Below, in pieces: positions 3,111 through 56,241 of a DNA stretch of 64,000 nucleotides. A program made the position numbers and the translations under genes. The notes beneath the pieces are model-generated. The model searched no databases. It saw nothing but the letters and a program-made list of their open reading frames with translations, and was not told where the DNA came from. Origin of the DNA: Halodesulfovibrio sp. MK-HDV (GTDB lineage: Bacteria > Desulfobacterota > Desulfovibrionia > Desulfovibrionales > Desulfovibrionaceae); the NCBI RefSeq assembly GCF_009914765.1, contig NZ_WYDS01000013.1, forward strand, positions 62,001-126,000. The letters are read 5' to 3'. The number at the start of each line of letters is the position of its first letter. The first letter of the stretch is position 1.

Positions 3111-3132
3111 GTTTGAGCGATTAGAAATAGTA

Positions 3133-4405: not shown

Positions 4406-4445
4406 AATTTTTCGAGTAAGTGTTCAAGCATCAAGCTTGAAGGTA

Positions 4446-6271: not shown

Positions 6272-6297
6272 CAGGTGTCCCCTAATTAAAATGAAAT

Positions 6298-6320
6298 GAG
6301 CCGGTGGTTACCACCGGCTC
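6298..6320 (-). promoter_or_regulatory. Intercistronic hairpin between dctP and dctQ
   Basis: GAGCCGGTGG/CCACCGGCTC is a perfect 10-bp inverted repeat with a 3-base loop, 16 bases after the dctP stop. It has no T-run, so it is not a full terminator. Such hairpins usually protect the upstream message or attenuate read-through, giving more binding protein than permease. Confidence 0.7.
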
Positions 6321-6336
6321 TGTAGTATCTGCGAGA

Positions 6337-16561: not shown

Positions 16562-17317
16562 TTACTTTTTAGTGAAAGGAGTAGTTATGGAAATAGCATC
16601 GACAGGACATACATTCTTGCAGGCTCCACAGTTTGTACAGTTAGCTTCCGCAGGGCGCGTATCCTGTTTGCAAGTGCGGGAACACTTACCGCAGTCTGTA
16701 CACGTTGATGCCATTGTATACTTGAAGAATGAGAAGCGGTTGAAAAATTCCAGAACACCACCTGTAGGACATACAAATCTGCAAAAGAAGTATGGAATAA
16801 CAAGCCCGAGTGCGATAGCGGCAACAACGAATAGGGTGCGGGAAAGCCACAGCAAGTTTGCATGTTCGAATGTAAGCATTGTGGAGTTGATGAATTCACC
16901 AGTGCGAATCGGAACAGCCCAGCGCGGGTTCTGCATTGCAAAGAAGAGATACGCAGCGCCGATTGCGGCAATGTACTTCCCCTTTTGAGCAATGGACTTG
17001 ATAACCGGAGAAATTTTTCGTTTCGCAATGGTTACAGAGCTGAATAGTTCGGAAATGGTTCCCACAGGACAAGCGTATCCACAGAATGCCCTGCCAAAGA
17101 ATAATGCTGAAACTGCAATACCAACAAGCACGATGTACCAGAGCTTTTTACCCGGGCACTGCACGACAGGACAGTTTGCACAGCTTACGTATGGCACTGC
17201 AAATGGACATCGGAAAATTCCATAGTAGGAGAACTCTGCAAGCATAAAGAAAGATACAGCTTGTATTACTCGTCGAGGCCATAGACGGGTGAGGGGTGAT
17301 AGTCGCGAATTAGGCAT
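16562..17317 (-). CDS. NapH/CcoG-like membrane 4Fe-4S protein
   Basis: A 251-residue membrane ferredoxin. About four membrane helices are present, with cysteine motifs between them (CANCPVVQCPG, FCGYACPVG, RFVCPTGG) as in NapH/MauN/NosR relatives. At the C-terminus are two cluster motifs, CTDCGKCSRTCKQ and CTNCGACKNVCPVDAI. Such proteins pass electrons from the quinone pool or cytoplasm toward periplasmic partners. It overlaps the binding-protein gene upstream by 8 bases and is the last gene of a three-gene operon. No reductase for it to serve is encoded nearby. Confidence 0.88.
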   Translation of the reverse strand: MPNSRLSPLTRLWPRRVIQAVSFFMLAEFSYYGIFRCPFAVPYVSCANCPVVQCPGKKLWYIVLVGIAVSALFFGRAFCGYACPVGTISELFSSVTIAKRKISPVIKSIAQKGKYIAAIGAAYLFFAMQNPRWAVPIRTGEFINSTMLTFEHANLLWLSRTLFVVAAIALGLVIPYFFCRFVCPTGGVLEFFNRFSFFKYTMASTCTDCGKCSRTCKQDTRPAEANCTNCGACKNVCPVDAISITTPFTKK

Positions 17318-18185
17318 CGGTAACTCCGTATTTTGCCGTCAGTCTTTCGCCTTCTTCAGAAAGAGCAGGGATGAATCCGGCAGTTGCAAAGTGCGCTTGT
17401 CCAGCTTCGGATGTAATGAATGATACAAAATCGTGCGCGAAGTCAGGATCTTTAGCCCATTTCATAACCCCGATAGTGAATGGGAGAGGTGGAGCAGGAA
17501 AGAACTTTTCCGGAATTTCAATGACATCAAATGCGTCTTTGTAGCGTGGAAGGCGGGTAATGCGAAGCTCAACAACAGCAGCATCTGCTTTGCCAGCGGC
17601 TACGTCTGCAACATCATGCTGAACGCAGGAACCCATGTAGATGGATTTTGCTTTTGCTTCCGGCAACACACCGCTTTTTTTGAGAACACCCATGGCAGCC
17701 TTACCCCCTGGAGGGGAAGAGTCAGGCGAGCAGAGCGTTTTAATATCATCCCGTTTTAAATCCTGAATTGATTCAATGCCTGCCGGATTTCCTTTAGGCG
17801 TGATGAGGACGTACTTGGTAAAACATAGCGGCTGGAAGGCAAGCATTTTGCCTTGCGCTTTAAGTTTTTTTGCAAGCCCGAGAACACGTGGTGCAAATAC
17901 TTCTGTTTGGGCACTGCCAAGAAGCGATTTTCCTAAAGCTCCTGCGAATGCGCCTGTGTAGCTAATGGCAGCATTGCTTTGCTGTTCGTACATGGCATTT
18001 GCAGGCATAAAGGCTTCTGCCAGACCACCACATGACCAGACCTGTAGTGATTGTCCTTCATATATAGTGGTTGTTGCTTCCGCTTCAGCGGCGCCTGCTA
18101 GGTTTGGTACCATGGTTGCCGCCAGTGCTGTGCCGCCAGCGGCTAAAAATTTTCGGCGATTTACTTTTAGCTGATCGTCGGACAT
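17310..18185 (-). CDS. Tat-exported substrate-binding protein (ModA-like)
   Basis: A 291-residue periplasmic binding protein with a twin-arginine signal (NRRKFLAAGGTALAATMVP, residues 9-27, cleavage near GAAEA). The mature part has the two-lobe anion-binding pattern of ModA/extracellular solute-binding proteins (LQVWSCGGLAEAF, YVLITPKGNPAGIESIQDL, DAAVVELRITRLP). No ABC permease or ATPase gene is adjacent, so it may be a sensor or ligand-delivery partner rather than part of a transporter. Tat export suggests folding with a cofactor or metal before export (inference). The gene overlaps both neighbours, so all three are translationally coupled. Confidence 0.85.
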   Translation of the reverse strand: MSDDQLKVNRRKFLAAGGTALAATMVPNLAGAAEAEATTTIYEGQSLQVWSCGGLAEAFMPANAMYEQQSNAAISYTGAFAGALGKSLLGSAQTEVFAPRVLGLAKKLKAQGKMLAFQPLCFTKYVLITPKGNPAGIESIQDLKRDDIKTLCSPDSSPPGGKAAMGVLKKSGVLPEAKAKSIYMGSCVQHDVADVAAGKADAAVVELRITRLPRYKDAFDVIEIPEKFFPAPPLPFTIGVMKWAKDPDFAHDFVSFITSEAGQAHFATAGFIPALSEEGERLTAKYGVTDA

Positions 18186-19099
18186 TTGGAGTGCTCCTTG
18201 CCGTGAATTCCTGCTGCATCAGCACGGCATTGTTTGCATTTTGTGAAAAGTGAAAGCGAAGGGGGGCATAGCGAATAAATGTGTTTGATCTCGTCGCGTG
18301 TGGGTTTTCGTGTAGAGCTCAAAGCATGGCGTGGAATTAGAGGCATCGGGTTAAAGACTTGCACGTTATGGTCCACGGCAAGTTGCATAACAGCTTCTAC
18401 TTCACTCATGTTAATTTCAGGAGCGATGACCATGTTAATCTTTAATGTCATTTTTCCAGCAACTTTTCGCAGTCCCTCCATCTGGCGTGAAATCAGAAGA
18501 TGACCGGCTTCTTCTCCTGTGAGCCATCTGCCGGAGTCAAATACCCGTGGCTGCATTTGTGCAATTACAGACGGTGTAACTCCGTTAACGGTGACAGTAA
18601 GCGTGTTGATGTTGAGGGCGATAAGTTTTTCTGCGTATTGGGGAAGTGCTAATCCGTTAGTGCATAAGCAGGTCGCGATGTGCGGTGCTTGTTTCTGTAT
18701 CTGCTCCAGAAATGTGATTGTTTCGGAGTTTGCCAGAGGATCTCCGGGACCGGCGATTCCGACAATTGAGTTGTCACCGTATTGCTGAAGGAATTTCATT
18801 GTTCTTTCGATACCCTGTTCAGGATCGAGCACTTCAGAAGTAGACCCCGGGCCTGTAAGGTCTGCAGGGGGAGAAATTACACGCTCACAGTAACCGCACG
18901 CCAAATTACAGCGTGGAGCAATAGGCACATGGATACGGGCAATCCGTCCATGTGCTTTTTCATTGAAGCATGGGTGAAACGGGAGTTGAGCAGATTTATC
19001 ACTATGCACACTATGCAGTGGCTGAGGGGCATAACTCGCCGTATTCGGCGCGCCGCAGGTCTGCAGGGAACATGCTGAAGACAAAGAAGGGGTGTTCAT
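18167..19099 (-). CDS. NifB-like radical SAM protein
   Basis: A 310-residue radical SAM enzyme. The cluster motif is CNLACGYC in ARIHVPIAPRCNLACGYCER, with the preceding HPCFNEKAHGR block that is characteristic of NifB-type proteins. GIAGPGDPLANSETITF is the SAM-binding GxxGxG-like region. A cysteine pair (CKQC) is near the C-terminus. No nitrogenase genes are in the window, and the NifX-like C-terminal domain of some NifB proteins is absent. It overlaps the Tat binding-protein gene by 19 bases. A role in making or inserting a metal cofactor, or modifying the exported partner, is only a guess. Confidence 0.85.
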   Translation of the reverse strand: MNTPSLSSACSLQTCGAPNTASYAPQPLHSVHSDKSAQLPFHPCFNEKAHGRIARIHVPIAPRCNLACGYCERVISPPADLTGPGSTSEVLDPEQGIERTMKFLQQYGDNSIVGIAGPGDPLANSETITFLEQIQKQAPHIATCLCTNGLALPQYAEKLIALNINTLTVTVNGVTPSVIAQMQPRVFDSGRWLTGEEAGHLLISRQMEGLRKVAGKMTLKINMVIAPEINMSEVEAVMQLAVDHNVQVFNPMPLIPRHALSSTRKPTRDEIKHIYSLCPPSLSLFTKCKQCRADAAGIHGKEHSKCPTIS

Positions 19100-35264: not shown

Positions 35265-36119
35265 TTAGAAAGTCGTAATCGTAATTTTATTCTCGCTTGA
35301 TGGAGACTGCATTAACAGACTCATGAAGAGAGCCTGAATCGGCATGCTTTTGCCATCTGGGGTGCTGTATGATGCTGAAAGCTGTTTAGAACCTGAAATA
35401 AAGCTCTGTAAGTCTGCCTGATAATCGACAGCAGGAACTTTTTTCAATTCTTTCTCAATGGTAGGAAGTGTTTCTTCTTTTACATTATTAGCAGCTAAGA
35501 ATTTTGCAACACCGCCATCATTTTTGAATGTAACTTTGATTGATTTCAGACCGATGCCACGCGCAATCGAAGCCTGATCCATTTCTTTCTTTTCCAACAT
35601 CATTTTGTAGAACTCAGGGGTGAATTCGAGTGCAAGGTTCGAAGTCATGCTGCCAAGTTCCGGCACTTGAATGGTTGCAACGCTGTCTGCATTTGTGCCG
35701 TCGAGTGTAGAGCTGCCGGAGATGTTTAGTACGAGATTATCAGTTCCATACTTTGCCGCTAAAGGAGCAACGAGCGGGAGCTTCATGCTGGTACAGGTAA
35801 AGCTTGTTTTGCCCTGATTTATATCCATAGAAAGAAGAGTGGTAAGAGAAGGGGATTTGGAAAGGGTGATATCTTTAATAGTTACAGTTTGTTTTGCGTT
35901 AGTTGAACCTTTTTCTCGTATTACAACGTCACTGTAATTAATGGATAAAATCCCAGCATCTATTTTGCTGCAAGTTACTTCAAGATCTTGTTTGTTCAGA
36001 TCTTCAAGCATTTCTACTGCAAGTTCTTTATTTTTTTTGATGAGTATAAATGAGCCAATGAGAGCTACTGCGACAATGCCGGCAAGAGCGATAGTAAGTA
36101 TTTTACGTTTAGGAGTCAT
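35265..36119 (-). CDS. Membrane-anchored hypothetical protein
   Basis: A 284-residue protein with one N-terminal membrane helix (ILTIALAGIVAVALIGSFIL, residues 7-26) and a soluble, probably periplasmic domain. The domain is rich in alternating hydrophobic/Thr/Ser stretches (VTIKDITLSKSPSLTTLLSM) suggesting beta-strands, in the manner of AsmA- or DUF945-like proteins, but I do not recognise the family. Two cysteines (TCSKI, FTCTSM) could pair. It is monocistronic and ends at the shared terminator. The function is unknown. Confidence 0.8.
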   Translation of the reverse strand: MTPKRKILTIALAGIVAVALIGSFILIKKNKELAVEMLEDLNKQDLEVTCSKIDAGILSINYSDVVIREKGSTNAKQTVTIKDITLSKSPSLTTLLSMDINQGKTSFTCTSMKLPLVAPLAAKYGTDNLVLNISGSSTLDGTNADSVATIQVPELGSMTSNLALEFTPEFYKMMLEKKEMDQASIARGIGLKSIKVTFKNDGGVAKFLAANNVKEETLPTIEKELKKVPAVDYQADLQSFISGSKQLSASYSTPDGKSMPIQALFMSLLMQSPSSENKITITTF

Positions 36120-43057: not shown

Positions 43058-43435
43058 TTATTTTGGCGCGTTGTATTTTTCCGGTGCTGGGTCTTTGGTC
43101 ACACCGTAGGTAGCAATACCTTCGTGACCTTCCGGAAGGTGTTCTGTCACTGGCATACCGTCTTCGTTAACGAAGAGCATACAGTGGCAGTATTTGTATT
43201 TTTTCATGTCTTCACATGGGCACAGCCATGTACGGGATTTAATTTCTTCTGTTTTGTCCGGATAAAAACGGCACGGACAGAGAGGTTTACCCAGTGTTTC
43301 AATGTTGCTTGCAAGGCCAGTTACTACCGCATCGGTAACTTCAGCCATGGAGTGGGTGGTAAGTCCTGTTTTTGTGCAATATTTTGCAACATAGTTGCGT
43401 ACACGTTTGATATGTTCTTCTGTTGGTTCGGTCAT
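43058..43435 (-). CDS. Ferredoxin-thioredoxin reductase catalytic subunit-like protein
   Basis: A 125-residue protein with the complete FTR beta-chain cysteine pattern: CPCRFY, then WLCPCEDMKK, then YCHCMLFV. These residues hold the 4Fe-4S cluster and the redox-active disulfide that passes electrons from ferredoxin to thioredoxin-like proteins. The length is normal. No partner (variable subunit or thioredoxin) is adjacent, as is usual outside photosynthetic organisms. Confidence 0.92.
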   Translation of the reverse strand: MTEPTEEHIKRVRNYVAKYCTKTGLTTHSMAEVTDAVVTGLASNIETLGKPLCPCRFYPDKTEEIKSRTWLCPCEDMKKYKYCHCMLFVNEDGMPVTEHLPEGHEGIATYGVTKDPAPEKYNAPK

Positions 43436-44056: not shown

Positions 44057-44653
44057 ATGAAAACATTTTTCTTTTTTGGCGATTCCCTAACTCTCGGTGT
44101 GAACGATCCGTCATTGCATGGGTGGATTGGTCAGTTAAGCTTGGTATCCGGCGTGCCGGTGCCTCCTGCTACCTTTTACAATATGGGCGCACGAAAGCAT
44201 TCCAGTTTGGCTATAGCCAAGAGATGGAAGGCTGAAGTTGAAGCCAGACTTATTGCAGAAAGTAAGCCCCGTCTTTTGTTCACATTTGGTGTCGTTGATA
44301 TGGCTACACCTGCCGGTCAGCAAAATCTTTCTATTGAAGAGTCTGTCGAGAACGCACGAACCATCCTTGTTGATGCAGTAGAAACCTACGGCAAAAAGAA
44401 TATCGTTATGGTGAGCCCGTTTCCTGTTGTGAACCTTGAGCATTGCGCTCGGATTGGTGAGTTATCTGCTGCGTATTTGGATATGTGCGCAGATTATGAC
44501 ATTTCGTATGTAGATATATTTACGAAGCTGTCACAGCATGAACCGTACTTGAATAATTTGTCTGATGGTATTCACCCAAGTGAAGAAGGAAATGCTATTA
44601 TCGCAAGCACTCTTCATAGCCATGAGCATATTGTACTGTGGATGAATAGCTAG
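44057..44653 (+). CDS. SGNH/GDSL-family hydrolase
   Basis: A 198-residue esterase/lipase-type protein. Block I is FFFGDSLTLGVND with the nucleophile Ser11; the glycine block is near YNMGARKHS; the catalytic Asp-x-x-His is in LSDGIHPSEEGNAII near the C-terminus. It has no signal peptide, so it is cytoplasmic. GGAGAGAGT precedes ATG. The substrate is unknown. Confidence 0.88.
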   Translation: MKTFFFFGDSLTLGVNDPSLHGWIGQLSLVSGVPVPPATFYNMGARKHSSLAIAKRWKAEVEARLIAESKPRLLFTFGVVDMATPAGQQNLSIEESVENARTILVDAVETYGKKNIVMVSPFPVVNLEHCARIGELSAAYLDMCADYDISYVDIFTKLSQHEPYLNNLSDGIHPSEEGNAIIASTLHSHEHIVLWMNS

Positions 44654-44719
44654 CTATTTCGTAGGACGTTTGACGGGTGCTTCGTATTGTCGTTAGGCAA
44701 GCCCGTATGTAATGTATTA

Positions 44720-44752
44720 AAAGGCTGTGCAATATGTGCGCAGCCTTTTTTA
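44720..44752 (+). terminator. Rho-independent terminator after the GDSL hydrolase gene
   Basis: AAGGCTGTGC pairs with GCGCAGCCTT (one G-U) and is followed by a T-run. Confidence 0.85.
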
Positions 44753-44910
44753 TGCTTTTTAAAATGCGTTGTGAGTGTGTCCTCATGATTTTTAGACTGT
44801 TTTTATTGAATAAACTTGTTCTATAAAAAAAATTCATGAAAAAGGTGAATTCTTTGAATTTTACTTTAAAAGCCCTCAAGCATAGATATTCATCAACGGA
44901 GGGAAACGAC

Positions 44911-45027
44911 ATGAAATACATTATGAGTGCTTGGAAAAGATTAGAAAATGCTCTGGTAGACGCAACATTCGCTGAAGTTGGTTGCGGAACCTATTGTACT
45001 TGCTGCAACAAACGCTGCAGAAAGTAG
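44911..45027 (+). CDS. Cysteine-rich small protein, array copy 1
   Basis: A 38-residue protein: MKYIMSAWKRLENALVDATF then AEVGCGTYCTCCNKRCRK. The N-terminal half is an amphipathic helix; the C-terminal half has five Cys in a basic tail. GGAGGGAAACGAC gives an ideal ribosome binding site. The frame stays open upstream to 44836, but copy 4 is frameshifted there, which argues for the short start. A terminator follows at once. Copy 2 is identical in protein sequence. I do not recognise the family with certainty; the helix resembles small FAEAGE-type proteins of deltaproteobacteria. Possible roles are a metal- or cluster-binding peptide or a modified-peptide precursor. Confidence 0.82.
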   Translation: MKYIMSAWKRLENALVDATFAEVGCGTYCTCCNKRCRK

Positions 45028-45028
45028 A

Positions 45029-45050
45029 AAAAGCGCCTTAAGGCGCTTTT
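45029..45050 (+). terminator. Terminator of array copy 1
   Basis: AAAGCGCCTT/AAGGCGCTTT, directly after the stop. A second hairpin with a T-run follows near 45143-45173 (CCTACAGA/TCTGTGGG). Confidence 0.88.
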
Positions 45051-45395
45051 CTGCGTTTCTGGGGTATGGATTTTTTAGCAACAGGAAGCATCTCCTTCAC
45101 CCGTGAACGACAGTAGGCCCAATTTGTGCCTTCGTATGAAATATCCTACAGATCATTCTGTGGGCTTTTTTTTGAGAACTTTTTGGGTGCTGTTGAAGCC
45201 TTTTAGCACCTGCAAGACTCTTTTTTTAAAAGAATACACATAGGTCGTGATAGTTCGCTGAGTATCTTTGTGCTTAACCCTTTGAAAGAGAACGGTATTT
45301 GAGCAACATAAAAAAAATTCATGGAAAAGGTGAATTCTTTGAATTTTACTTTGAAAGCCCTCAAGCATAGATATTCATCAACAGAGGGAAACGAC

Positions 45396-45512
45396 ATGAA
45401 ATACATTATGAGTGCTTGGAAAAGATTAGAAAATGCTCTGGTAGACGCAACATTCGCTGAAGTTGGTTGCGGAACCTATTGTACTTGCTGCAACAAACGC
45501 TGCAGAAAGTAG
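45396..45512 (+). CDS. Cysteine-rich small protein, array copy 2
   Basis: A 38-residue protein identical in sequence to copy 1 (MKYIMSAWKRLENALVDATF, then AEVGCGTYCTCCNKRCRK). The leader from about 45316, the ribosome binding site (GAGGGAAACGAC) and the terminator are nearly identical to those of copy 1, so this is a recent duplication. The flanks beyond the terminator have diverged strongly. Like copy 1 it is a transcription unit of its own. Confidence 0.82.
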   Translation: MKYIMSAWKRLENALVDATFAEVGCGTYCTCCNKRCRK

Positions 45513-45513
45513 A

Positions 45514-45535
45514 AAAAGCGCCTTAAGGCGCTTTT
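45514..45535 (+). terminator. Terminator of array copy 2
   Basis: AAAGCGCCTT/AAGGCGCTTT, identical to that of copy 1. A second hairpin with a T-run is near 45620-45650 (CCTGCAGA/TCTGTGGG). Confidence 0.88.
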
Positions 45536-45858
45536 CTGCGTTTCTGGGGTTCGTCATTTTCGCAGAAGTTCCAAATTTATAGCGCCAGAAGTTAAATATT
45601 CGTTGTCCACGTACGAAGTTTCCTGCAGATCAATCTGTGGGATTTTTTTGTTGATGAGGGGAGACGTTGACCATTGTGAGTATTACTTTTGTTTAAAAAA
45701 GTATGACTATTTCTAAAAAGACTTTTTTCGATGACTGCAAACCCTTTGATACCAAGGGTTTTTAAATATCATAAAAAAAAGTTATGGAATGGATGAATTC
45801 TTTGAATTTTACTTTCCGTTTGACGAAGCTTAATTGTAGTTCAACGGAGGGAAAGAAA

Positions 45859-45972
45859 ATGAAATACATTAAGAGTGCCTGGAGACGATTAGAGAATGCT
45901 TTGGTAGACGCGACTTTTGCGGAAGTTGGATGTTGTACCGTTTGTACTGGCTGTAACCGTTGCAGAAAGTAG
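45859..45972 (+). CDS. Cysteine-rich small protein, array copy 3
   Basis: A 37-residue homologue of copies 1 and 2: MKYIKSAWRRLENALVDATF then AEVGCCTVCTGCNRCRK. The helical part is kept almost unchanged while the cysteine tail varies (five Cys in CCTVCTGCNRC). The ribosome binding site is GGAGGGAAAGAAA. Upstream, AACCCTTTGATACCAAGGGTT (arms only, 45739-45762) is a hairpin with T-run that ends read-through from copy 2. Confidence 0.82.
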   Translation: MKYIKSAWRRLENALVDATFAEVGCCTVCTGCNRCRK

Positions 45973-45973
45973 A

Positions 45974-45996
45974 AAAAGCGCCATGAGGCGCTTTTC
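45974..45996 (+). terminator. Terminator of array copy 3
   Basis: AAAGCGCC/GGCGCTTT with an ATGA loop. A further hairpin with T-run (CCTGTAGAA/TTCTACAGG) lies near 46098-46126. Confidence 0.85.
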
Positions 45997-46361
45997 TTAT
46001 TTTGTCTGAACAGCAAATCTGGAGAACGTGAAAAGTTTCACTATTGATGTTTTTTCTGCTATTACTTCTTTTGTAAACATAGATTGCATACTCGTCACCT
46101 GTAGAACAGTTTCTACAGGTTTTTTTGTGTCCAAGTATAGAACTACTAAAGTAGAAAATCAGAAGTGCAGAGGAAAATTGTGTATGCAAGATCCTTTTTG
46201 AAAAAAGTTTCAAGGTGATCGTGAAGGGGCAATCGCTTCTAATCCTTTGATACCAAGAGTAAAAAGGGTTTCATGAATTTTTTTCATGGAAAAGCTAAAA
46301 AGTTTGAATTTTACTTCGAAGACGGTCAGGCATAGTTACTTTCTCAACGGAGGGAAACGAG

Positions 46362-46475
46362 ATGAAATACATTAAAAGTGCTTGGAAAAAATTAGAGAAC
46401 GCTCTGGTAGACGCAACATTCGCTGAAGTTGGTTGTGGAACCATTTGTACTGGCTGCAGACGCTGCGGAAAGTAA
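46362..46475 (+). CDS. Cysteine-rich small protein, array copy 4
   Basis: A 37-residue homologue: MKYIKSAWKKLENALVDATF then AEVGCGTICTGCRRCGK (four Cys). GGAGGGAAACGAG is the ribosome binding site. In the leader, bases corresponding to the upstream extension of copies 1-3 are out of frame with this gene, which shows that translation starts at ATG 46362. It is followed by a terminator and then by the gene for a larger cysteine-rich protein. Confidence 0.82.
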   Translation: MKYIKSAWKKLENALVDATFAEVGCGTICTGCRRCGK

Positions 46476-46500
46476 AAAGTGCCGAAAGGCACTTTTTTTT
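46476..46500 (+). terminator. Terminator of array copy 4
   Basis: AAAAGTGCC/GGCACTTTT with a GAAA loop and a run of T. Confidence 0.9.
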
Positions 46501-46599
46501 TGCCTAATGAAAACTGTTCACGGGTTGCGCTTGACTTTGGTTGCTTTTGACGGGCACAAATTGGTGTCAAAGATAGCACTCGAAAATTAGGTAGGAGAG

Positions 46600-47373
46600 A
46601 TGATGACACTTTCATCAGAGAATACAATGCAGGAAGTCGTAGCACCAACGGGGGTCGTTACGATTGCTGGCCGCAAGGCAAAGATTACACTGGAAACCAC
46701 GTTTCCAGATAGTCCCGCATGGCAGCCGCATCCTGTTGATCCAGAAAAAGCCGAGCGTATGGCATATGATGGTTGTATCGGGGGATACGGTTGTTGTTAC
46801 GCTGCGTTCTATAGCATCATCGGGCAAATGGCTGAAAAGCACGGGGCACCATACAAAGATTTTCCGTTCCATGCCATGAAAGCAGGGCGCTCCGGCATCG
46901 GTGGATGGAAATCTACCTGCGGTGCACTCGTTGGCGCGGCGTTCGCCTACGGTCTATTTTACGAGAAGAAAGAGCATAACGAACTCGTACGTGAACTCTT
47001 CCACTGGCACGACACAACCGCGCTGCCAGTCTATCGTCCGAAAACGAACTGCAAGCTGGATGTAGACATTCCAAGCAGCATCAGTGGCTCAGTATTATGT
47101 ACTGCATCTAAAGCTCGCTGGGCATATGCATCAGGGTTTCCAATTAAATCCAAAGAATGTTCAGAACGCTGCGCACGCCTCACGGCAGATGTCGCACGCA
47201 AAGCCATAGAAATTTTACACGCTAAAATGGATGGCACCTTTGTCGCAACAGCGGACAAGAATGCCGGCATGAAGTGTGATGACTGCGATAACTGTGATTC
47301 TTCTTTTAAAGAGGAAGCTGCATCAGTAATTATCGTAAAGCAGCCAGAATATCGGTCTGTAAAAGCTAGTTAA
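46600..47373 (+). CDS. C_GCAxxG_C_C-type cysteine-rich redox protein
   Basis: A 257-residue protein with cysteine motifs of the C_GCAxxG_C_C family: MAYDGCIGGYGCCYAAFYSI (about residue 52-70), STCGALVGAAFAYGLF (about 105) and KSKECSERCARLTADV near residue 187, with a late cluster CDDCDNCDSS. The first part resembles split-Soret cytochrome c proteins of Desulfovibrio, but no CxxCH heme motif and no signal peptide are seen. It probably binds an Fe-S cluster or other metal and acts in electron transfer (inference). TAGGAGAG precedes ATG. It follows the four-copy small-protein array, which is itself cysteine-rich. Confidence 0.78.
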   Translation: MMTLSSENTMQEVVAPTGVVTIAGRKAKITLETTFPDSPAWQPHPVDPEKAERMAYDGCIGGYGCCYAAFYSIIGQMAEKHGAPYKDFPFHAMKAGRSGIGGWKSTCGALVGAAFAYGLFYEKKEHNELVRELFHWHDTTALPVYRPKTNCKLDVDIPSSISGSVLCTASKARWAYASGFPIKSKECSERCARLTADVARKAIEILHAKMDGTFVATADKNAGMKCDDCDNCDSSFKEEAASVIIVKQPEYRSVKAS

Positions 47374-47778: not shown

Positions 47779-48348
47779 CTAGTTAACAGGCTGAGCTTCT
47801 CCGCTGGTAGCAGCGATGCAGCAGCGTGCAGCTTCTTCAGCTTTCTGAGCCTGATATTCGTGGATTTCCACGAACTTGATTGCGCCGAACTTACATGCAC
47901 TAGCACATGCAGTGAGTTCTTCGCCATTCTTTGCGCGCCATTCGGAGCACTGGTCACATTTAATAGCAACCTTGCGTGATGTTGGAACAGCGTCACCGAT
48001 GATTGGTTCGTTATGAGCAACGTTAATAGCGCCGAACGGACAAACCATTACGCACATTTTACAACCAACGCAGAGCTGCTGGCGAACTCGAACCATGCCA
48101 GGTTCACGAACGAGCGCTGCTGTAGGACAAACGCGTGCACATGGTGCATTGTGGCACTGGTGGCACTGTACAGGAACTTTAGCTTTCTCAATTTTGCACA
48201 CTTTGATGCGGCTTAAGTGAGTAGCTTTGTTCTTAATGATTTCCTTACGGGTGAGGTTCGTGTGTGCTTCTACACATGCGATTTCACATTTTTTACAGCC
48301 TTTGCATTTTTCAGCATCAACAACTAATGCGTACTCTTTAGTTTCCAT
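47779..48348 (-). CDS. cooF: CooF-type ferredoxin, 4[4Fe-4S] electron-transfer subunit
   Basis: A 189-residue CooF/HycB-like polyferredoxin. Four cluster motifs are seen: CKGCKKCEIACVEAH, CHQCHNAPCARVCPTAAL, CVGCKMCVMVCPFGAI and a last group with CDQCSEW and CASACKFGAI. In CO-oxidising bacteria CooF carries electrons from CO dehydrogenase (CooS) to the membrane hydrogenase. No cooS follows; the operon ends here at a terminator. The start at 48348 is chosen because AAGGA lies 8 bases before it. It overlaps hypA by 11 bases. Confidence 0.9.
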   Translation of the reverse strand: METKEYALVVDAEKCKGCKKCEIACVEAHTNLTRKEIIKNKATHLSRIKVCKIEKAKVPVQCHQCHNAPCARVCPTAALVREPGMVRVRQQLCVGCKMCVMVCPFGAINVAHNEPIIGDAVPTSRKVAIKCDQCSEWRAKNGEELTACASACKFGAIKFVEIHEYQAQKAEEAARCCIAATSGEAQPVN

Positions 48349-48703
48349 AAGAATCATCCTTATTAACAGGTTCCACTTCGAGACTTTTTACTTGTAATTC
48401 TCGACCGGTAACCATTGTGAGATTTATATTTGAACATCGTGGACATGTATCCCCGATGCGTTTTTCAAACGTGTAGTGACATTCGCTGCATTTCCAGCTT
48501 GCCGGAACGTCAATGAATGTCAGCTGTACACCTTTAAGAGGTGTGTTCTCTGTGCAGATTTCAAAACAACCCTCTAGGGTATGTTTTTCTATGCAAGTAT
48601 GCTGACCAATTTCTATGCGAATTTCGCGCACGATCACGTCTTTACCCTTAACGGTCTCGTTGACAATGGTGATCATACTTTGCGTTATAGCTAATTCATG
48701 CAT
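48338..48703 (-). CDS. hypA: Hydrogenase nickel incorporation protein HypA
   Basis: A 121-residue HypA. It starts MHELAITQSM, with the N-terminal Met-His-Glu nickel site, and has the zinc site WKCSECHYTF...CPRCSNIN. It delivers nickel to the hydrogenase large subunit with HypB. The start at 48703 is fixed by the conserved MHE; GAGGGA lies upstream. It stands directly after cooH, the protein it matures. Confidence 0.95.
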   Translation of the reverse strand: MHELAITQSMITIVNETVKGKDVIVREIRIEIGQHTCIEKHTLEGCFEICTENTPLKGVQLTFIDVPASWKCSECHYTFEKRIGDTCPRCSNINLTMVTGRELQVKSLEVEPVNKDDSYGN

Positions 48704-48792
48704 CAGATTTTTCCCTCTTACTCTACGTAACCCCGCTGTTGCCCCTTCATCTACAGGCGGCAAACAAACAGAATACCCTTAAAAACCAATCA

Positions 48793-49878
48793 CTAGCGCT
48801 CTGTACAAGAGAGGCAAGGATCGATGCTGTTTACGATAAGCGCGATATCCGCAACTTTCGCTTTATCCAGCATTACGCGAAGACCTTCCCAGTTTACATA
48901 GGTAGGTACGCGCCATTTCAAGCGTTCAGGGTACATGGTGCCGTTGGTACGCATGTAGTAGATAAGTTCTCCACGTGGTGCTTCGGAACGAGCCACAGCC
49001 TGCCCGGCAGGGATATCTGGAAGTGGATCGCAGCAGATAGGCCCTTTAGGCATCTGATTGAGGCACTGTTCGATAATGCTGATTGATTCGAAAATCTCAC
49101 CAAGGCGTACAAGAGCACGGGAACGAACGTCGCAGCCATCGCCGAGAACAACATTGAAGTTAAGCATGTCATATGCAGCGTACGGGCTTTCTTTACGAAC
49201 ATCGTTATCAATGCCGGAGCCACGTGCTACTGGACCGCCAAGGCCGTATTCAATAGCAGCTTCCGGAGGAAGGATGCCTACGCCCTGTGTGCGTGCTTTA
49301 ACCTGTGGATGAGTTGCATACATGTGTCTGAACTCTTCAATAGGTTTTTTCAGTTCTTCAAGAGTCTTGCGAAGGTACGCTACAAGTTCGTCATCAAGAT
49401 CGTACTTGGCGCCGCCAATTGTGTTGGCGGAGATGTCCATGCGGTTGCCCCAGATGGACTCTTTAAGATCCTGCATGGTTTCACGAACTTCCATGGCATG
49501 CATGAAAAGTGTGTTGAAACCGATAACGTGCAGGCCGATACCCACGTTGAACATGTGAGAAGCAATACGTTTTACTTCGTCTGCAATGACGCGAAGGTAC
49601 TGACCGCGTTCAGGAACCTGAATTTGTGCGATGTTCTCAAGCGACATGCAGTATGTCAGCGGGTGGTTGTTGGAGCAGAGTGAACATACGCGCTCTGTGA
49701 GCACGATGTTCTGGAAAAAGTTTCTTTCAAGCGCAAGGCTTTCCATACCGCGGTGAGCGTGTCCTGCGAACATTTCGATGGACTGAACAACTTCACCTTT
49801 AACGTCTACCTGAAAGTACATTGGCTCTTCGAGCGCAACGTGCAGTGGACCAACCGGAATAGTGTATGTTTTAGACAT
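48793..49878 (-). CDS. cooH: CO-induced hydrogenase large (Ni-Fe) subunit
   Basis: A 361-residue NuoD/EchE-type hydrogenase subunit. Nickel ligands are C65 and C68 (TERVCSLCSNNH) and C355 and C358 (IDPCLSCTER). The protein ends three residues after the last Cys, so there is no C-terminal peptide for a maturation protease to remove, as in other Ech/Coo enzymes. It reduces protons to H2 or oxidises H2 and couples this to ion pumping. It overlaps no gene but starts 1 base before the end of cooU. Confidence 0.95.
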   Translation of the reverse strand: MSKTYTIPVGPLHVALEEPMYFQVDVKGEVVQSIEMFAGHAHRGMESLALERNFFQNIVLTERVCSLCSNNHPLTYCMSLENIAQIQVPERGQYLRVIADEVKRIASHMFNVGIGLHVIGFNTLFMHAMEVRETMQDLKESIWGNRMDISANTIGGAKYDLDDELVAYLRKTLEELKKPIEEFRHMYATHPQVKARTQGVGILPPEAAIEYGLGGPVARGSGIDNDVRKESPYAAYDMLNFNVVLGDGCDVRSRALVRLGEIFESISIIEQCLNQMPKGPICCDPLPDIPAGQAVARSEAPRGELIYYMRTNGTMYPERLKWRVPTYVNWEGLRVMLDKAKVADIALIVNSIDPCLSCTER

Positions 49879-49879
49879 G

Positions 49880-50407
49880 CTAGCTCTCCTCTCCTTTCTC
49901 ACCCATAATTTTTTCCCACAGTGAGTTGGTGGACGCACTGTTGGTCATGGTGGAAAGAGGAACAAGTCGTTCCATTGCTTCGGACTGTACAGTCTCGTGC
50001 AGGAACAAAGGACGCGGGTTTGGGTGGTTGCGTACGGTAATACCGTAGCTTTCCGCCATTTCGCGTTCAGCCCAGTCAGCAGATTTGTGCCATAGAGTAA
50101 TGGAAGGCACAGACGGCTCAACACCGGTAGGTAACAAGGTAACAGTGACAGACATACCTTTGATGACAAAGTGGTAGCACACTTCGTGGAAGGCTTTTTT
50201 GTCTTCTGCTTTAGCGTTACATGCGGAAATGGTTACAAGACGACCCTCAGGCAGAATTTTTTCTGCAAACAGAGGAAGGTCTTCAACTTCGTTAAGAGTG
50301 ACCCAGGCGAACTGGTTCTCTTTAAGGTCGGCAGTCCAGCTAAGTTCTGCACCCTTTGGCATTGTATCAACGAGGTTAATAACTCGCTGTTTCATTGTAT
50401 TAATCAT
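49880..50407 (-). CDS. cooU: CO-induced hydrogenase subunit CooU (NuoC-like)
   Basis: A 175-residue protein of the NuoC/EchD family. The family signature is WHKSADWAEREMAESYGI followed by HPNPRPLFLHE near the C-terminus. It helps assemble the hydrophilic arm between the large subunit and the ferredoxin subunit. The start at 50407 is chosen because GGAG lies upstream and because it gives the usual size; it overlaps cooX by 8 bases. Confidence 0.92.
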   Translation of the reverse strand: MINTMKQRVINLVDTMPKGAELSWTADLKENQFAWVTLNEVEDLPLFAEKILPEGRLVTISACNAKAEDKKAFHEVCYHFVIKGMSVTVTLLPTGVEPSVPSITLWHKSADWAEREMAESYGITVRNHPNPRPLFLHETVQSEAMERLVPLSTMTNSASTNSLWEKIMGEKGEES

Positions 50408-50924
50408 GGATATGAGCTCCAAACTGTTGAGCGGCTTTCTGTCGTCTGCACTCAGGACAAAGACTGTAGATGTTTTCGAGTTCTTCAGTTGGTGTACCGT
50501 AGATGTGGTCAAGCATTGCATGCGGCATATTCGGCATGGTCTGATCACATTCAGGACAACGGGCATATGCTATAAACTCGTGTTCTTTCTTTTTGTATTT
50601 GTCTTCGTTGCGATGCGCGGTTGACCAATTATTGGTTTGGCTAATCGCCTTAGTGGGACAGTAATGATGGCACATTCCGCAAAAAGTGCAGGTGTTATGC
50701 CATACATAAAAATCCTTACCGGAGCCGTCTTCACGTTCTACGTGCTTGATTGCGTTACCTGCACAAACAGTTGCACAGACACCGCAGCCAACACAGGAAT
50801 CAGGGTCAATAGTGACCTTGCCGCGAAGGCGGGCTGGGGTGAAGGTTTCACCGAACGGAAACGGGTCGGTGGAAGGGCCTTGCCTCAGGTTGTTCCAAAG
50901 AACTTTAAAGATACTAAGCACCAT
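50400..50924 (-). CDS. cooX: CO-induced hydrogenase ferredoxin subunit CooX (NuoI-like)
   Basis: A 174-residue NuoI/EchF-type protein with two 4Fe-4S motifs, CVGCGVCATVCAGNAIKH and CTFCGMCHHYCPTKAI, and extra C-terminal CxxC pairs (ARCPECDQT, SLCPECRRQ). It links the electron donor CooF to CooL. AAGGAGGTA precedes the start. The additional CxxC pairs may bind zinc or a further cluster. Confidence 0.93.
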   Translation of the reverse strand: MVLSIFKVLWNNLRQGPSTDPFPFGETFTPARLRGKVTIDPDSCVGCGVCATVCAGNAIKHVEREDGSGKDFYVWHNTCTFCGMCHHYCPTKAISQTNNWSTAHRNEDKYKKKEHEFIAYARCPECDQTMPNMPHAMLDHIYGTPTEELENIYSLCPECRRQKAAQQFGAHIHD

Positions 50925-50931
50925 TACCTCC

Positions 50932-51369
50932 TTAGATCCGTGTTTTCCAAATATCCAGTGCCATCGCTACACCTTCAAGAATAGCCTGAGGGCGAGGAGG
51001 ACAGCCAGATACGTTCACATCAACAGGAATAATATCGTCCAACATAATAGGTACAGAGTAGCTGCCGCGGAACACACCGCCGGAAATTGGGCAAATACCC
51101 ACAGCAATGGTTACCTTTGGGTCTGGAATCTCTTCATATACACGCAGCACTTTGTCTCTGACCATAGCGGTCACAGGGCCGGTGATAAGGACAATATCAG
51201 CATGCTTCGGACTGCCGCAGTATTTGCAGCCGAGGCGTTCAACGTCGTAGCGCGGAATAAGCGCTGTAGTAGCAAGTTCAACGTCACAACCGTTACATGA
51301 TCCCGCATTAATACGGTACAGCCACGGAGAACGGACAGCTTTGCTTTTAATTGCATCGATAATAGACAT
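50932..51369 (-). CDS. cooL: CO-induced hydrogenase small subunit CooL (NuoB-like)
   Basis: A 145-residue NuoB/EchC-type protein that holds the proximal 4Fe-4S cluster beside the Ni-Fe site. Ligands are in NAGSCNGCDVELATT, GICPISGGVF and VSGCPPRPQAILEG. AAGGAAAGCTGAT precedes the start. It lies in the conserved order cooK-cooL-cooX. Confidence 0.95.
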   Translation of the reverse strand: MSIIDAIKSKAVRSPWLYRINAGSCNGCDVELATTALIPRYDVERLGCKYCGSPKHADIVLITGPVTAMVRDKVLRVYEEIPDPKVTIAVGICPISGGVFRGSYSVPIMLDDIIPVDVNVSGCPPRPQAILEGVAMALDIWKTRI

Positions 51370-51380
51370 ATCAGCTTTCC

Positions 51381-52340
51381 TTATTTGAGCAGAAGAGTCA
51401 GTCCAAGACTCACGTATGCCAGCACTGACGGGTACTTGAGGTAGAACTTAAAAGTCTGGTCAGTACGCAGGCGTCCGGTCGCAGAGCGAACAATGGTTAC
51501 GGACACGAGCATGAGCATGAAGCATTTGAAAATGAACCATGCAAGGTTGGCCAGAGCGCCGCCAGGGATTGTGCCCGGGAAGAAGAGTGTCACGCCGAGA
51601 CCCATCACAACAACCAACTTGAGCGCGCTCGCGAGGTTGAACATGGCAAGTAACGGACCAGAGTACTCAAGCAGCGGGCCTTCAAGCAGTTCCGGCTCAG
51701 CTTCCGGCAGGTCAAATGGTACTACGCCCATTGTGCCCGGAATGAAGCAGAGGAATGCGATGAAAGCTGGAATCATGCTCAGGTTAAAGCCGAAGGAGCC
51801 GTTTGCGTGCTGGTATGACACAACCTGTGCAAGGGAGAACTCAGAACCGTCTGCGCCGCCTGCTTTGAGTGCAACAGTGAGGAGCACAACAAGCAGAGGG
51901 ATTTCATACGCGAACATGAGTACCATTTCACGGGAAGTACCGATTGCGCCGTACGGAGAGCTGGACGCGGAACCTGCGAGCATAAATGCAATCGCAGGAA
52001 TCGGCAGCAAGTACAGAAGCATCAGCATATCGCCAAGACCGGAAGCACCGTCCCATACACCTGGAACAGGGATGAGCATTGCTGCTACCATCATACCCAT
52101 GAAGCCGAATACAGGAGCAAACTTGAAGATTGCTTTGTTTGCGGTATCAGGGATGATTGTCTCTTTTTGACTCAACTTAATGATGTCGTAGAAAGGCTGA
52201 AGGATCGGAGGACCCACACGGCGCTGGAGGCGCGCGCAGATCTTACGGTCAAAACCTTTTAGAATAAGTCCCAGAATCAGAGCGAACAGCCCGCCCGGGA
52301 ATATGAGTAAGTGAAAGCTATGTGTAAGCATATCTAACAT
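51381..52340 (-). CDS. cooK: CO-induced hydrogenase membrane subunit CooK (NuoH-like)
   Basis: A 319-residue membrane protein of the NuoH/EchB family with eight or so helices. Typical blocks are ICARLQRRVGPPILQPFYDI (residues about 31-50), the AYEIPLLVVLL helix and DLPEAEPELLEGPLLEYSG, where the acidic loop contacts the hydrophilic arm. It joins the redox part to the ion-pumping part. It starts 2 bases after cooM ends. Confidence 0.95.
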   Translation of the reverse strand: MLDMLTHSFHLLIFPGGLFALILGLILKGFDRKICARLQRRVGPPILQPFYDIIKLSQKETIIPDTANKAIFKFAPVFGFMGMMVAAMLIPVPGVWDGASGLGDMLMLLYLLPIPAIAFMLAGSASSSPYGAIGTSREMVLMFAYEIPLLVVLLTVALKAGGADGSEFSLAQVVSYQHANGSFGFNLSMIPAFIAFLCFIPGTMGVVPFDLPEAEPELLEGPLLEYSGPLLAMFNLASALKLVVVMGLGVTLFFPGTIPGGALANLAWFIFKCFMLMLVSVTIVRSATGRLRTDQTFKFYLKYPSVLAYVSLGLTLLLK

Positions 52341-52342
52341 GA

Positions 52343-55300
52343 CTATTTTTTCCTTCTACTGGAAAGGAATTCGGCCGGAAGGTTCAGCCACTGTTCCAGA
52401 ACGGTCAGTGCAGGTTCGTAGAAGTTTGAGCCGCTAACATGAGATTTTTCCGGGCTGATATCTGTTACACCACAACCGTGAGTGTGACAGATGCGCTCGG
52501 ACTTGTTCATGAAGGATAGGATCAAACGAGCCACACCGTAGGAAATTGCCATCACTAGAGCGCAGGAAATTGCGTCCCATGAACCGGAACCAGTTGCGAT
52601 ACCGCCGAGGTTGATGTCGAGCGGAGCAAAGCCGGTAGATTCGAGGATGGAATTAACTGGTGCCAGAAGCAGACCCGGGAACACGCCGAAGAAAACGGAC
52701 GCGCCAGCGAGAATGCCCATTGGCATACGCATAAACTTGCCAACCTCAGTTACACCTTCGAGGCTTGGATTAAGCTGACCGAAGAATGCAGAGTGCAGGA
52801 ACTTGATCATGTACGCGAGAGTTAGCACGGAGCCGGAGAGTGCGAGCAGTGCAAGAAGCACTTCGCCCTGATCCATAAGACCGTGGTAGAGCATCCATTT
52901 GGAGGTGAAGCCGCTAAGTGGCGGAACACCTACAGCAGAGAATGCTGCAATGGCGAATACGGTAAGTGTAAACGGCATTTTTCTACCGATGCCGGAAAGC
53001 TCATCGAGCGTATCAGCATGGGTGCGGTACATGATTGCGCCTGCTGCGAGGAACAGGAGGTTTTTAAAGAACATGTGGTTAACAAAGTGCATTAAACCAC
53101 CGGATACGGTCAGCGGGGTAGCTATACAGATACCGAGCAGAACGTATGCCATCTGAGAAACGGTGGAGTAAATCAGCACGCGTTTAATAGATGTCTGCAT
53201 GACTGCTTTAAGGGCAGCGTAGAAGATGGTGATGCCTGCAACCCATGCAAGAGTGTACATGATTGCTGGCTGCGCCCAGTAGCCGGATTTGCCTGCAAAG
53301 AATCCTGCGCCGCCGATAACGAAGAAGAGCTTCATAAGTCCGAAAGGACCAGTCTTCAGCAGAACGGAGGAGATGTAACCGGAAACCGGAGTCGGTGCGG
53401 TTGCAGGGTGCATCCACATATCAATACGCAGCGGAAGCATTGCCGCTTTCATGGCAAAGCCAAGAGCGATAAATACCATTGCGTACATACCTGTGGAGCC
53501 AGGCAGGGTGCCAAGCGCCTGTGCAAGTTCACCGAATCCGAACACGCCGGATTTTGCTGTGAGCATTGCAACGCCAAAGAACATGAAGGATGCGCCAAGA
53601 ATGTTGAAGAGGAAGTACTTAAAGCCTTCGTTAAGAGCACTCTTGGATTCTTCATGAATAATGATGGAGTACAACGGCCAACTGGACATGATCTCCCAGA
53701 AGAGGAAGAACGTGAAAATGTTGGAACTGGTTGCAACACCCAGCAGCCCGCCGATCATCAGCAGGAATAGGGTGAAGAAACGCCACTGTGTGTGGCTGTG
53801 ATCCATGTAGTTTGCAGAGTATACAACGTTGAGAATAGCCATGAGGATAATAAGGAGACTGAAGCCGATGCTCAGTGCGTCCAGAGAACCCCATGAGAAA
53901 CCAAGGCCGATAAATGCAAGAACCAGAACGCCTACGGTGCCCCATGCAGCTTTTTCCAGATTTTTGCGCATGATGTATGGAACAATTGCGCCGACCATTG
54001 GAATTGCTACGTAGAGAGGCCAGCCGATGGCTAGGTTAGGTAAAGGCTGAACTGCGATTTTGCCGGCTGCAAGCAGGGACTGCATAACAGGAGCAACAAT
54101 AATAATGTTCAGCTGAGGGAATACGCCGAGCAAGAGACTGGCTGCTGCAAGGACACCCATTGGTATAAGACAGGTAAGCGGAGCTTCTGCAACCGGCTCA
54201 CCTTCGTATTTTTCAAAGAAGAGGATTCGTGCAAGGCGAGTGTAGTACACAACCGCCATCAAACCACCTGCAAGAATCATCGCTGCTATAAAAGGCTGTC
54301 CTGCTTCAATTGCTGCGTAGACCATGAAGAATTTACTTACGAAGCCACCGAAAGGCGGAAGGCCGATAATTCCCATGATACCGATAAACATGCAAAGACC
54401 GGTGAGCGGCATTGCGCGTCCCAGACCTTTAAGCTTGCTGATGGTGTATGTTCCTGAACGGAGGATAAACATACCCACGCCAAGGAACAGCAGGTTTTTC
54501 ATGATTGCATGGTTCACAACGTGCGCCATGGAACCAGTAAGAGAAAGGTATGTGCCAAGGCTGAGCACCATTGCAATTTCACCGACTTGCGCCATGGTGG
54601 AATATGCGAGCATGCGTTTAACGTTTTTCTGCATAAGTCCCAAGACTTCTGCAAACAAAAAGGTTGTTGCGCCAAGCACGGTGATCAGTGTTGGGACATC
54701 AAATGCGCCTTCCTGATTGAAGTATCCAGCTCCGAAAAGGGCAAAGCATACCATGAGCATGCCGTATATGCCGGTCTTGGTAAGAATACCGGAGAGCGGA
54801 CCGGAAATGGAGGAAGGTGCCACAGGGTGGGCAGCAGGGAGCCAGCTGTGGAATGGTACAAGACCAGCCTTAACAGCAAAGCCCAAGAAACAAAGTAAGG
54901 CAGCCATACCAGCAAGGGTAGGGTTCATGTTTCCTGTTGCCTGAGCAATAGCAGCAAATTCAAAGCTGCCTGTTGCACTGTGGATAAGGAAAATGCCGAA
55001 CAGCAGGGCATATGCACCGGCTGCACACATAAAGAAGTATTTAAAGCCTGCTTTAAACGCGTCCGTTGTTTCTTCGTGGATAACGAGGAAATAAGAACTA
55101 AAGGTCATCAGTTCCCAGAATCCGTACAGAGCGCCGAGGTGCTGTGTAAGGGTGAGACCGATGAGAGAGCCCTGCATGAGAAGCAGGAAGAACCAGTAGC
55201 GGGTAGAGTTTTCTTTATGAATGTATCCACCGGAGTACACGGTCACAACAAGGCCGATGCCAGCCATAATGCAGGCAAAGAGCTTGGAGAGAGCCGGAAC

Positions 55301-56128
55301 ATCAGCAGAGGCGGTAAGTACAAGTGCGGCTACAGATAATGCAGTTGCCAGTACAAATCGCCAGTCATAACGCTTAAGCGCCGCTGGAATGTATTTGGAC
55401 GGAATAAATAGTAGGAAAGCGCCGACATATGGAAGAGCTGCTGCAAGCGGCCAATGCACTTCGAACTGAGGAATCGTTGCCTCAGCACCGAAAGTTGCTA
55501 TGACTGCATGAATAAGCGGCTCCGGAAAAACGTGAGAGAGCGCAACAACCGCAGCCAACAGGATGGTAATACCACCAAGAATGGTTGAGGTAGCTGGTTT
55601 GCTGTCTGCGTTTTCAGGCGCTTCAAAACAGATGCTTTGAACAATTTTGATGGTGTACCACAAAGCAATACAGTTGCCCGCGAGCAGCATGATTGCAGGG
55701 AAGTACATTTCTGCACTGACAAGCCCGTATGTCAGCGCGAGTTTGCTAACTGCACCTTTGAATGGAGTAAATCCAATGGCGGAAAACATGGCAAACCCGA
55801 ATGTGCCTGCGAAAAGCGGAGAGCGTTTAAACGCACCGCGCAGGTTGGTGAGATCGAGTGAACCGAACTGTTTTGCCAGTCCGTAAAGTGCAAACATAGC
55901 CAGAGCTCTGATAGAGATCTGATAAAAAAGATGTAACGCAGCGCCTGCATTACCGGAGATTGTTCCTGTCCCAAACCCTGCAAGGACAGCCCCGATTTCC
56001 GCAATGCTGGAAAAAAGGAGAACGGTTGTTAATTTGTTAGACTGCTTAAATGCCCAAAACTGAGCAAGCAGAAGAATCAAACACCCAAAGTAGACTGAGA
56101 AGTGAGAAGTGGTAACTTCAAGTAACAT
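52343..56128 (-). CDS. cooM: CO-induced hydrogenase membrane subunit CooM, double antiporter-like fusion
   Basis: A 1261-residue membrane protein with two Mrp/NuoL-N-like antiporter modules in tandem, the usual CooM size. Module 1 has LGALYGFWELMTFSSYFLVI and VPFHSWLPAAHPVAPSSISG (split at about residue 455), and module 2 has FTFFLFWEIMSSWPLYSII and the LPLRIDMWMHPATAPTPVSG block. Each module carries the Glu/Lys pairs used in proton or sodium translocation. In Ech enzymes EchA has one such module. The start at 56128 is chosen because AAGGAG lies upstream; the open frame to 56218 lacks one. The first gene of the operon. Confidence 0.93.
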   Translation of the reverse strand: MLLEVTTSHFSVYFGCLILLLAQFWAFKQSNKLTTVLLFSSIAEIGAVLAGFGTGTISGNAGAALHLFYQISIRALAMFALYGLAKQFGSLDLTNLRGAFKRSPLFAGTFGFAMFSAIGFTPFKGAVSKLALTYGLVSAEMYFPAIMLLAGNCIALWYTIKIVQSICFEAPENADSKPATSTILGGITILLAAVVALSHVFPEPLIHAVIATFGAEATIPQFEVHWPLAAALPYVGAFLLFIPSKYIPAALKRYDWRFVLATALSVAALVLTASADVPALSKLFACIMAGIGLVVTVYSGGYIHKENSTRYWFFLLLMQGSLIGLTLTQHLGALYGFWELMTFSSYFLVIHEETTDAFKAGFKYFFMCAAGAYALLFGIFLIHSATGSFEFAAIAQATGNMNPTLAGMAALLCFLGFAVKAGLVPFHSWLPAAHPVAPSSISGPLSGILTKTGIYGMLMVCFALFGAGYFNQEGAFDVPTLITVLGATTFLFAEVLGLMQKNVKRMLAYSTMAQVGEIAMVLSLGTYLSLTGSMAHVVNHAIMKNLLFLGVGMFILRSGTYTISKLKGLGRAMPLTGLCMFIGIMGIIGLPPFGGFVSKFFMVYAAIEAGQPFIAAMILAGGLMAVVYYTRLARILFFEKYEGEPVAEAPLTCLIPMGVLAAASLLLGVFPQLNIIIVAPVMQSLLAAGKIAVQPLPNLAIGWPLYVAIPMVGAIVPYIMRKNLEKAAWGTVGVLVLAFIGLGFSWGSLDALSIGFSLLIILMAILNVVYSANYMDHSHTQWRFFTLFLLMIGGLLGVATSSNIFTFFLFWEIMSSWPLYSIIIHEESKSALNEGFKYFLFNILGASFMFFGVAMLTAKSGVFGFGELAQALGTLPGSTGMYAMVFIALGFAMKAAMLPLRIDMWMHPATAPTPVSGYISSVLLKTGPFGLMKLFFVIGGAGFFAGKSGYWAQPAIMYTLAWVAGITIFYAALKAVMQTSIKRVLIYSTVSQMAYVLLGICIATPLTVSGGLMHFVNHMFFKNLLFLAAGAIMYRTHADTLDELSGIGRKMPFTLTVFAIAAFSAVGVPPLSGFTSKWMLYHGLMDQGEVLLALLALSGSVLTLAYMIKFLHSAFFGQLNPSLEGVTEVGKFMRMPMGILAGASVFFGVFPGLLLAPVNSILESTGFAPLDINLGGIATGSGSWDAISCALVMAISYGVARLILSFMNKSERICHTHGCGVTDISPEKSHVSGSNFYEPALTVLEQWLNLPAEFLSSRRKK

Positions 56129-56241
56129 GCAATTCTTGCTCCTTATGAAAGAAGTCCATACCGATTGCCCAGACGCACCTATGGCAGGTGAATCCACGGT
56201 ATCCTTCCAATACAACACAGAGGAAACCCCATTTCCCTGTT

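Follow-up and report, generated by a model that had tools for sequence, protein, structure and literature searches.

Tandem genes for small cysteine-rich proteins beside a split-Soret cytochrome homologue without heme motifs in Halodesulfovibrio

Results

The window analysed here, a stretch of 64,000 nucleotides from Halodesulfovibrio sp. MK-HDV, carries at 44911-46475 four tandem forward-strand genes whose products are cysteine-rich and 37-38 residues long, just where a preliminary description of this DNA had placed them. Copies 1 (44911-45027) and 2 (45396-45512) are of type A and encode 38 amino acids each, and they do specify the same protein, as had been noticed. Copy 3 (45859-45972, type B) and copy 4 (46362-46475, type C) encode 37 amino acids. 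All four peptides share LENALVDATFAEVGC, and the Shine-Dalgarno sequence before the ATG reads GGAGGG in copies 1, 3 and 4 and AGAGGG in copy 2. The cassettes are spaced at 485, 463 and 503 nt, with 99% identity between copies 1 and 2 over 243 nt. In the organism's own assembly (54 contigs, 97.3% complete) there are four copies and no more, the fifth match (E 0.345) being attributable to chance.

A hairpin follows each stop codon on the forward strand, at 45028-45051, 45513-45536, 45973-45996 and 46474-46501 for copies 1 to 4, respectively. These first hairpins have folding energies of -13.4 to -14.4 kcal/mol, which at most 1 of 200 shuffled sequences equalled, and the interval 44600-46700 contains 10 terminator-like sites against 1.8 expected. 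In copies 1-3 the first hairpin is followed, after roughly 100 nt, by another that is terminator-like by folding and by terminator scan (45145-45172, 45621-45649 and 46097-46127), whereas copy 4, to which a second hairpin had also been ascribed, has none and leads on to the split-Soret-like gene described below. The claim that every gene is separately terminated held in part: the first hairpin passes the scan on the forward strand in copy 4 and on both strands in copy 3, but only on the reverse strand in copies 1 and 2, where the forward-strand stem is followed by TTTTC and no long T run. In these two copies the real message end may therefore be the second hairpin, which does pass the scan. 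At Rfam gathering thresholds, the sole match in the whole window was one tRNA.

Upstream of each gene lies a conserved forward-strand block (44823-44885, 45308-45370, 45771-45833 and 46273-46335), which in copy 1 runs from ATAAAA to TTGAATTTTACTT and, after 14 nt, a GCATAG-like box. Comparison of 20 copies from the genus aligned the block without gaps, from ATAAAA through an invariant TTGAATTTTAC, which precedes the start codon by 57 or 58 nt, to the GCATAG-like box. Together with the hairpins, this comparison bears out the self-contained cassette design that had been proposed. The 14-mer TTTGAATTTTACTT occurs without mismatch in its own genome only before the four array genes; with one mismatch allowed, it has four other genomic sites against three for the reversed pattern used as control, a rate so close to the control that we claim no wider regulon. 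Nor is the 14-mer found before the split-Soret-like gene described below, and hence we make no claim of common regulation with the array. A scan of 44600-46700 for sigma-70-like promoters found none on either strand, against 4.0 in shuffled sequences. We interpret the block as a promoter or activator-binding site dedicated to these genes; alternatively, it could be an RNA element within a longer leader.

The leader noted earlier is conserved at the DNA level, but not as a translated leader. The upstream frame, open for 63 amino acids in copies 1 and 2, was rejected as a candidate because it is shifted in copy 4, because one copy in genome G009 contains a stop as read from the sequence, and because invariance extends to third codon positions and to bases preceding that ATG. 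Other repeats were seen in the spacers: an inverted repeat CCTTTGATACCAAGGG at 45743-45758, upstream of copy 3, and another, CCTTTGATACCAAGAG, at 46244-46259, upstream of copy 4, both with similar sequences in G009 and G002, and a GTGAAA..TTTCACTAT-like palindrome at 46028-46045, in the spacer that follows type B copies, which is present in other species too.

With 4-5 cysteines in 37-38 residues, the peptides carry the pattern CxxxCxxC-x2-3-C, whose four cysteines are invariant in 14 distinct peptides. Over the same set C25, C29, C32, R35, C36 and K38 are all invariant, and the tail varies only between them. Pooled pN/pS was 0.27, indicating purifying selection (18 copies in 153 non-independent pairs, two G001 copies and the cut G002 copy being left out), and came to 0.20 for the helix half and 0.48 for the cysteine tail. 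The conserved helical half and basic cysteine tail of the preliminary description are consequently both there, while the variability it ascribed to the tail does not extend to the fixed positions. The best single-sequence structure model predicts a helix at residues 4-23 (mean pLDDT 76.8, pTM 0.38); the other four reached mean pLDDT values of 57-67. The three distinct peptides of the window have no hydrophobic export or membrane segment (best 19-residue Kyte-Doolittle mean 1.0-1.3) and matched no Pfam or NCBIfam family at E<=5, the metallothionein models among them. Sequence search of solved structures in the PDB gave no convincing match, the best being a DNA ligase at E 0.53. A 'DATF..GCGT' likeness to a frame at locus L011, which we take to be IscU/NifU-like, was judged coincidental.

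The array is present in 6 of 10 Halodesulfovibrio genomes in 2-5 copies: four in the window genome, five in G009, three in G008, two in G005, three in G001, where the end of contig C22 and the start of C13 encode the same protein, and three or four in G002. These counts leave out matches at E 0.009-0.09 (L011-L015, L029, L030). The profile search for homologues that had been suggested thus succeeded in five other genomes of the genus; outside it, no convincing member was found in overlapping sets of genomes from the family (288), the class (348) and the phylum (395). The best match beyond the genus (E 8.3e-5, residues 2-24), from the phylum sample, is the tail of a receiver protein, and that of the class search (L073, E 2.4e-4, residues 15-35) is a frame with a stop. 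The first peptide had no counterpart in phage or plasmid records, and a literature search by title and start of abstract did not find the family among the matches listed. Purifying selection and the occurrence of arrays at the corresponding position in five further genomes exclude chance. The four-gene observation is real, and the small-protein family is specific to this lineage and unusual in its arrangement.

A tree of 20 cassettes (supports 0.40-0.98; first copies of G001 and G002 shortened by contig ends) resolves three groups that keep chromosomal order, with type A first, B next and C last, beside the putative partner gene described below. The exceptions are the first copy of G008, which groups loosely with A, and the first two copies of G001, which group with C. 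Type A has multiplied, to two copies in the window genome and three in G009. Copies 1 and 2 of the window are 99% identical in the cassette but 48% in the spacer, as expected if conversion or selection keeps the cassette alike, whereas the first two units of G009 are 98% alike in the cassette and 91% in the spacer and, judged by these figures, are a plain recent duplication. The earlier suggestion that gene dosage is under selection is plausible in view of the 2-5 copies, the recent gain of type A and the contrast between cassette and spacer in the window, with the plain duplication in G009 as an exception to the last.

Adjoining the array in all six array genomes is a forward-strand gene (46600-47373) for a homologue of split-Soret cytochrome c, 77-85% identical in the five others. 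On the other side lie a GDSL-type hydrolase (44057-44653, forward strand) and a ferredoxin-thioredoxin reductase beta-like protein (43058-43435, reverse strand). Downstream, on the reverse strand, 47779-56218 encodes a 4Fe-4S protein, HypA and complex-I/hydrogenase-like subunits (49 kDa, 30 kDa, NuoH-like and antiporter-like), a cluster that we take to be of the Coo/Ech type. The order, from reductase-like protein through hydrolase, array, split-Soret-like gene, 4Fe-4S protein and HypA to the hydrogenase-like cluster, is the same in the array genomes to the extent that their contigs cover it.

The split-Soret-like (Ssc-like) product is homologous to split-Soret cytochrome c (PDB 1h21) over its core (E 8.4e-96 with a profile of 13 sequences), and C65, C66, C107, C167 and C191 are invariant in the 13 aligned homologues. 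The two CxxCH motifs, both present in the seven aligned paralogues (of eight found; L046 was left out), are absent from all six orthologues, as is, by our reading of the alignment, the Tat-like SRRQM-type N-terminus that the paralogues have. Against the NCBIfam split-Soret model NF047622 the product scores 235, below the cut-off of 400. The structure model of this protein was too poor for use (mean pLDDT 34), and the patterns used retrieved no relative of its gene from viral contigs. According to an excerpt of PMC4215793, the periplasmic split-Soret cytochromes of D. alaskensis showed no fitness phenotype, and a table in PMC5701242 lists, in its nitric oxide section, a fold change of -1.74 for ssc; neither concerns the heme-less form.

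Array and heme-less Ssc-like gene are both missing from the other 4 of the 10 genomes, three of which have only a paralogue of 47-49% identity and one of which, G003 (86% complete), has none. The same four genomes also lack the GDSL gene, in a search that had no positive control, and the NuoH-like subunit, for which G005 served as positive control. The linkage may accordingly be that of one inherited block, and the co-occurrence of array and Ssc-like gene is probably that of one clade. It should be noted that the six arrays, too, probably share one origin, which makes the linkage weak functional evidence.

Discussion

Of the readings considered, the one that suits the peptide best is a small protein binding a metal or an iron-sulfur cluster. 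Our leading proposal, to which we assign a probability of about 0.45, is that the array encodes microproteins that are made in abundance, stay in the cytosol, dock by a helix and carry four cysteines as a site for a metal or an Fe-S cluster, and that these act together with the heme-less Ssc-like protein. The anatomy of the array, in which each copy has its own regulatory block and hairpins, suggests that each gene would be expressed separately and at a high level, with a total output that copy number could scale, and the peptides would remain in the cytosol. The predicted helix at residues 4-23 may dock on a partner or on another copy, and the four invariant cysteines of the basic tail may coordinate a single metal ion or Fe-S cluster, or serve as redox thiols. 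The most likely partner would be the product of the adjacent Ssc-like gene, which keeps the five invariant core cysteines but has lost the export signal and the heme motifs. We count in favour that the neighbours are redox and metal proteins (the ferredoxin-thioredoxin reductase beta-like and 4Fe-4S proteins, HypA and the hydrogenase-like subunits), and against that no metal-binding family in Pfam or NCBIfam matches the peptides. A similar layout is known from SoxR-type proteins, in which a helix is followed by a compact four-cysteine [2Fe-2S] site. In SoxR the helix is likewise long and the four cysteines are confined to some 12 residues close to the C-terminus; however, the cysteine spacing is different, the peptides have no DNA-binding domain, and the PDB sequence search with the peptides did not return SoxR.

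A bolder version, which we consider improbable, would make the locus a split redox module, in which a formerly periplasmic heme protein has become cytosolic and heme-less, dosage-amplified microproteins supply the cofactor site in trans, the whole is tied to the neighbouring hydrogenase and ferredoxin economy, and a dedicated regulator acts at the TTGAATTTTAC block. If the pairing of peptide and Ssc-like protein is functional, a redox protein would have been rebuilt from a heme-free core and detachable peptides. Apart from this, the family merits attention as one that is easily recognised, multicopy and confined to a single genus in the genomes searched, and that is linked both to a cytochrome relative without heme motifs and to a 14-mer unique, in its own genome, to the array.

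Readings as a RiPP precursor, a type I toxin or a metallothionein each fail on at least one tested feature. The preliminary description had offered two possibilities, a modified-peptide precursor and a metal- or cluster-binding peptide, and it is the latter that fits better, with binding itself a proposal. As a RiPP precursor, the peptide would have the helix half as its leader and the cysteine tail as its core, and the two-part layout and multiple precursor copies would suit such a role. We nevertheless deem it very unlikely, given that the neighbours scanned show none of the radical SAM, YcaO or protease genes to be looked for nearby: the 15 proteins scanned between 34.3 and 56.2 kb of the window, one of which (35265-36119) matched no family, include no radical SAM, YcaO, LanM-type or peptidase family. 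One gene for a radical SAM protein does occur in the window, at 18170-19099, but 26 kb from the array. Nor is the supposed core hypervariable, as the tail evolves faster than the helix half yet under purifying selection, and its cysteines, R35 and K38 do not vary. Searches of Pfam and NCBIfam, too, gave no matching model. Still harder to credit are tandem repeats of a type I toxin-antitoxin kind, with short toxic peptides and antisense RNAs. Tandem units of about 460-500 nt encoding short peptides, as well as first hairpins which, in copies 1-3, the terminator scan accepts on the reverse strand, recall such systems, but the peptide is not membrane-spanning by its hydropathy, the spacer between copies 1 and 2 has diverged while the cassettes have not, and sigma-70-like promoters are absent from both strands, although that scan also misses the array's own promoter. 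Bacterial metallothioneins are small and cysteine-rich, and the peptides resemble them in this; a stand-alone metal buffer or thiol reserve of that sort, tuned by copy number and acting without a partner, would account for the tandem amplification with its recent type A duplications and for the cysteine-rich basic tail. We hold it to be quite unlikely because the peptides have far fewer cysteines, match no Pfam family and possess a conserved helical half, which is the most constrained part of the molecule and would not be expected of a simple metal sponge.

The remaining alternative, which we regard as unlikely, is that of a signalling microprotein, whose helix half would copy the 'FAEAG' helix that these bacteria have on receivers and beside Usp-like proteins, and which would compete for the interaction of that helix or bridge it, the cysteine tail acting as a redox switch. 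It draws on the stand-alone receiver (CheY-like) proteins of Desulfobacterota, in whose tails, as in the peptides, the helix sequence resembles K..Y..K.E(D/N)A(L/M)V.ATFAE.G; the receiver tails, with the pattern K..YR.K.EDAMVAATFAEAG, mostly run on into an acidic second segment, whereas the peptides have the basic cysteine-rich tail and no receiver domain. Of the 12 family-wide matches of the peptide profile outside the genus at E<=0.01, nine are C-terminal tails of stand-alone receivers, the other three being close to the 2.8 that this threshold predicts in some 280 genomes, and the receiver tail found in the phylum sample is the only match there at E<=0.001 other than the peptides themselves. 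A second profile, A2, made from four receiver tails and one small protein, retrieves the array peptides within the genus (best E 7.3e-6), along with FAEAG helices at the start of Usp-like proteins, in small basic proteins and in the double-FAEAG protein described below; A2 was, however, assembled from matches of the peptide profile and is circular in this respect. The tails are, moreover, orthologous across three genera and so amount to few independent events, and the best match of the class search outside the genus is no receiver tail but a frame interrupted by a stop. When the tails were left out, a model of 15 FAEAG sequences scored the nine distinct peptides at just 1.5-4.6 bits. The best of these scores was reached by 5 of 10,000 shuffled sequences (7658 of which gave a score), and the other eight peptides fell below the ten best shuffles. 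Alignment of the peptides with this model by hhalign gave a probability of 30% over 16 columns, and the model found no significant FAEAG protein within the window. As this direct test is weak, we take kinship between the peptide helix and the receiver-tail or FAEAG helix to be suggestive.

The FAEAG helix is a separate element worth defining in its own right, given its presence in receiver tails, Usp-like proteins and small basic proteins, and no model for it exists in the copies of Pfam and NCBIfam searched. At locus L110 (G000:C15:18000-30000, positions 5765-6475), the motif LE....A..FAEAGe.dtA occurs in the N-terminus of a Usp-like protein, the Usp match of which is below the Pfam cut-off, and in the adjoining small basic protein. 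At L111 (G000:C8:110000-120000, positions 3008-5630) it occurs twice in one protein, whose gene is flanked by those for a histidine kinase and for a stand-alone receiver that is itself without the tail. In other genera the receiver carries the motif, fused on as its tail.

Two further gene groups were observed elsewhere in the window. At 16562-19099, genes for a radical SAM protein, a solute-binding protein with a twin-arginine-like start and a 4Fe-4S protein stand side by side. Near the window start, at 865-3107, genes for an aldehyde dehydrogenase and an MreB/FtsA-like protein adjoin each other, a pair that we assume is perhaps part of a microcompartment operon.
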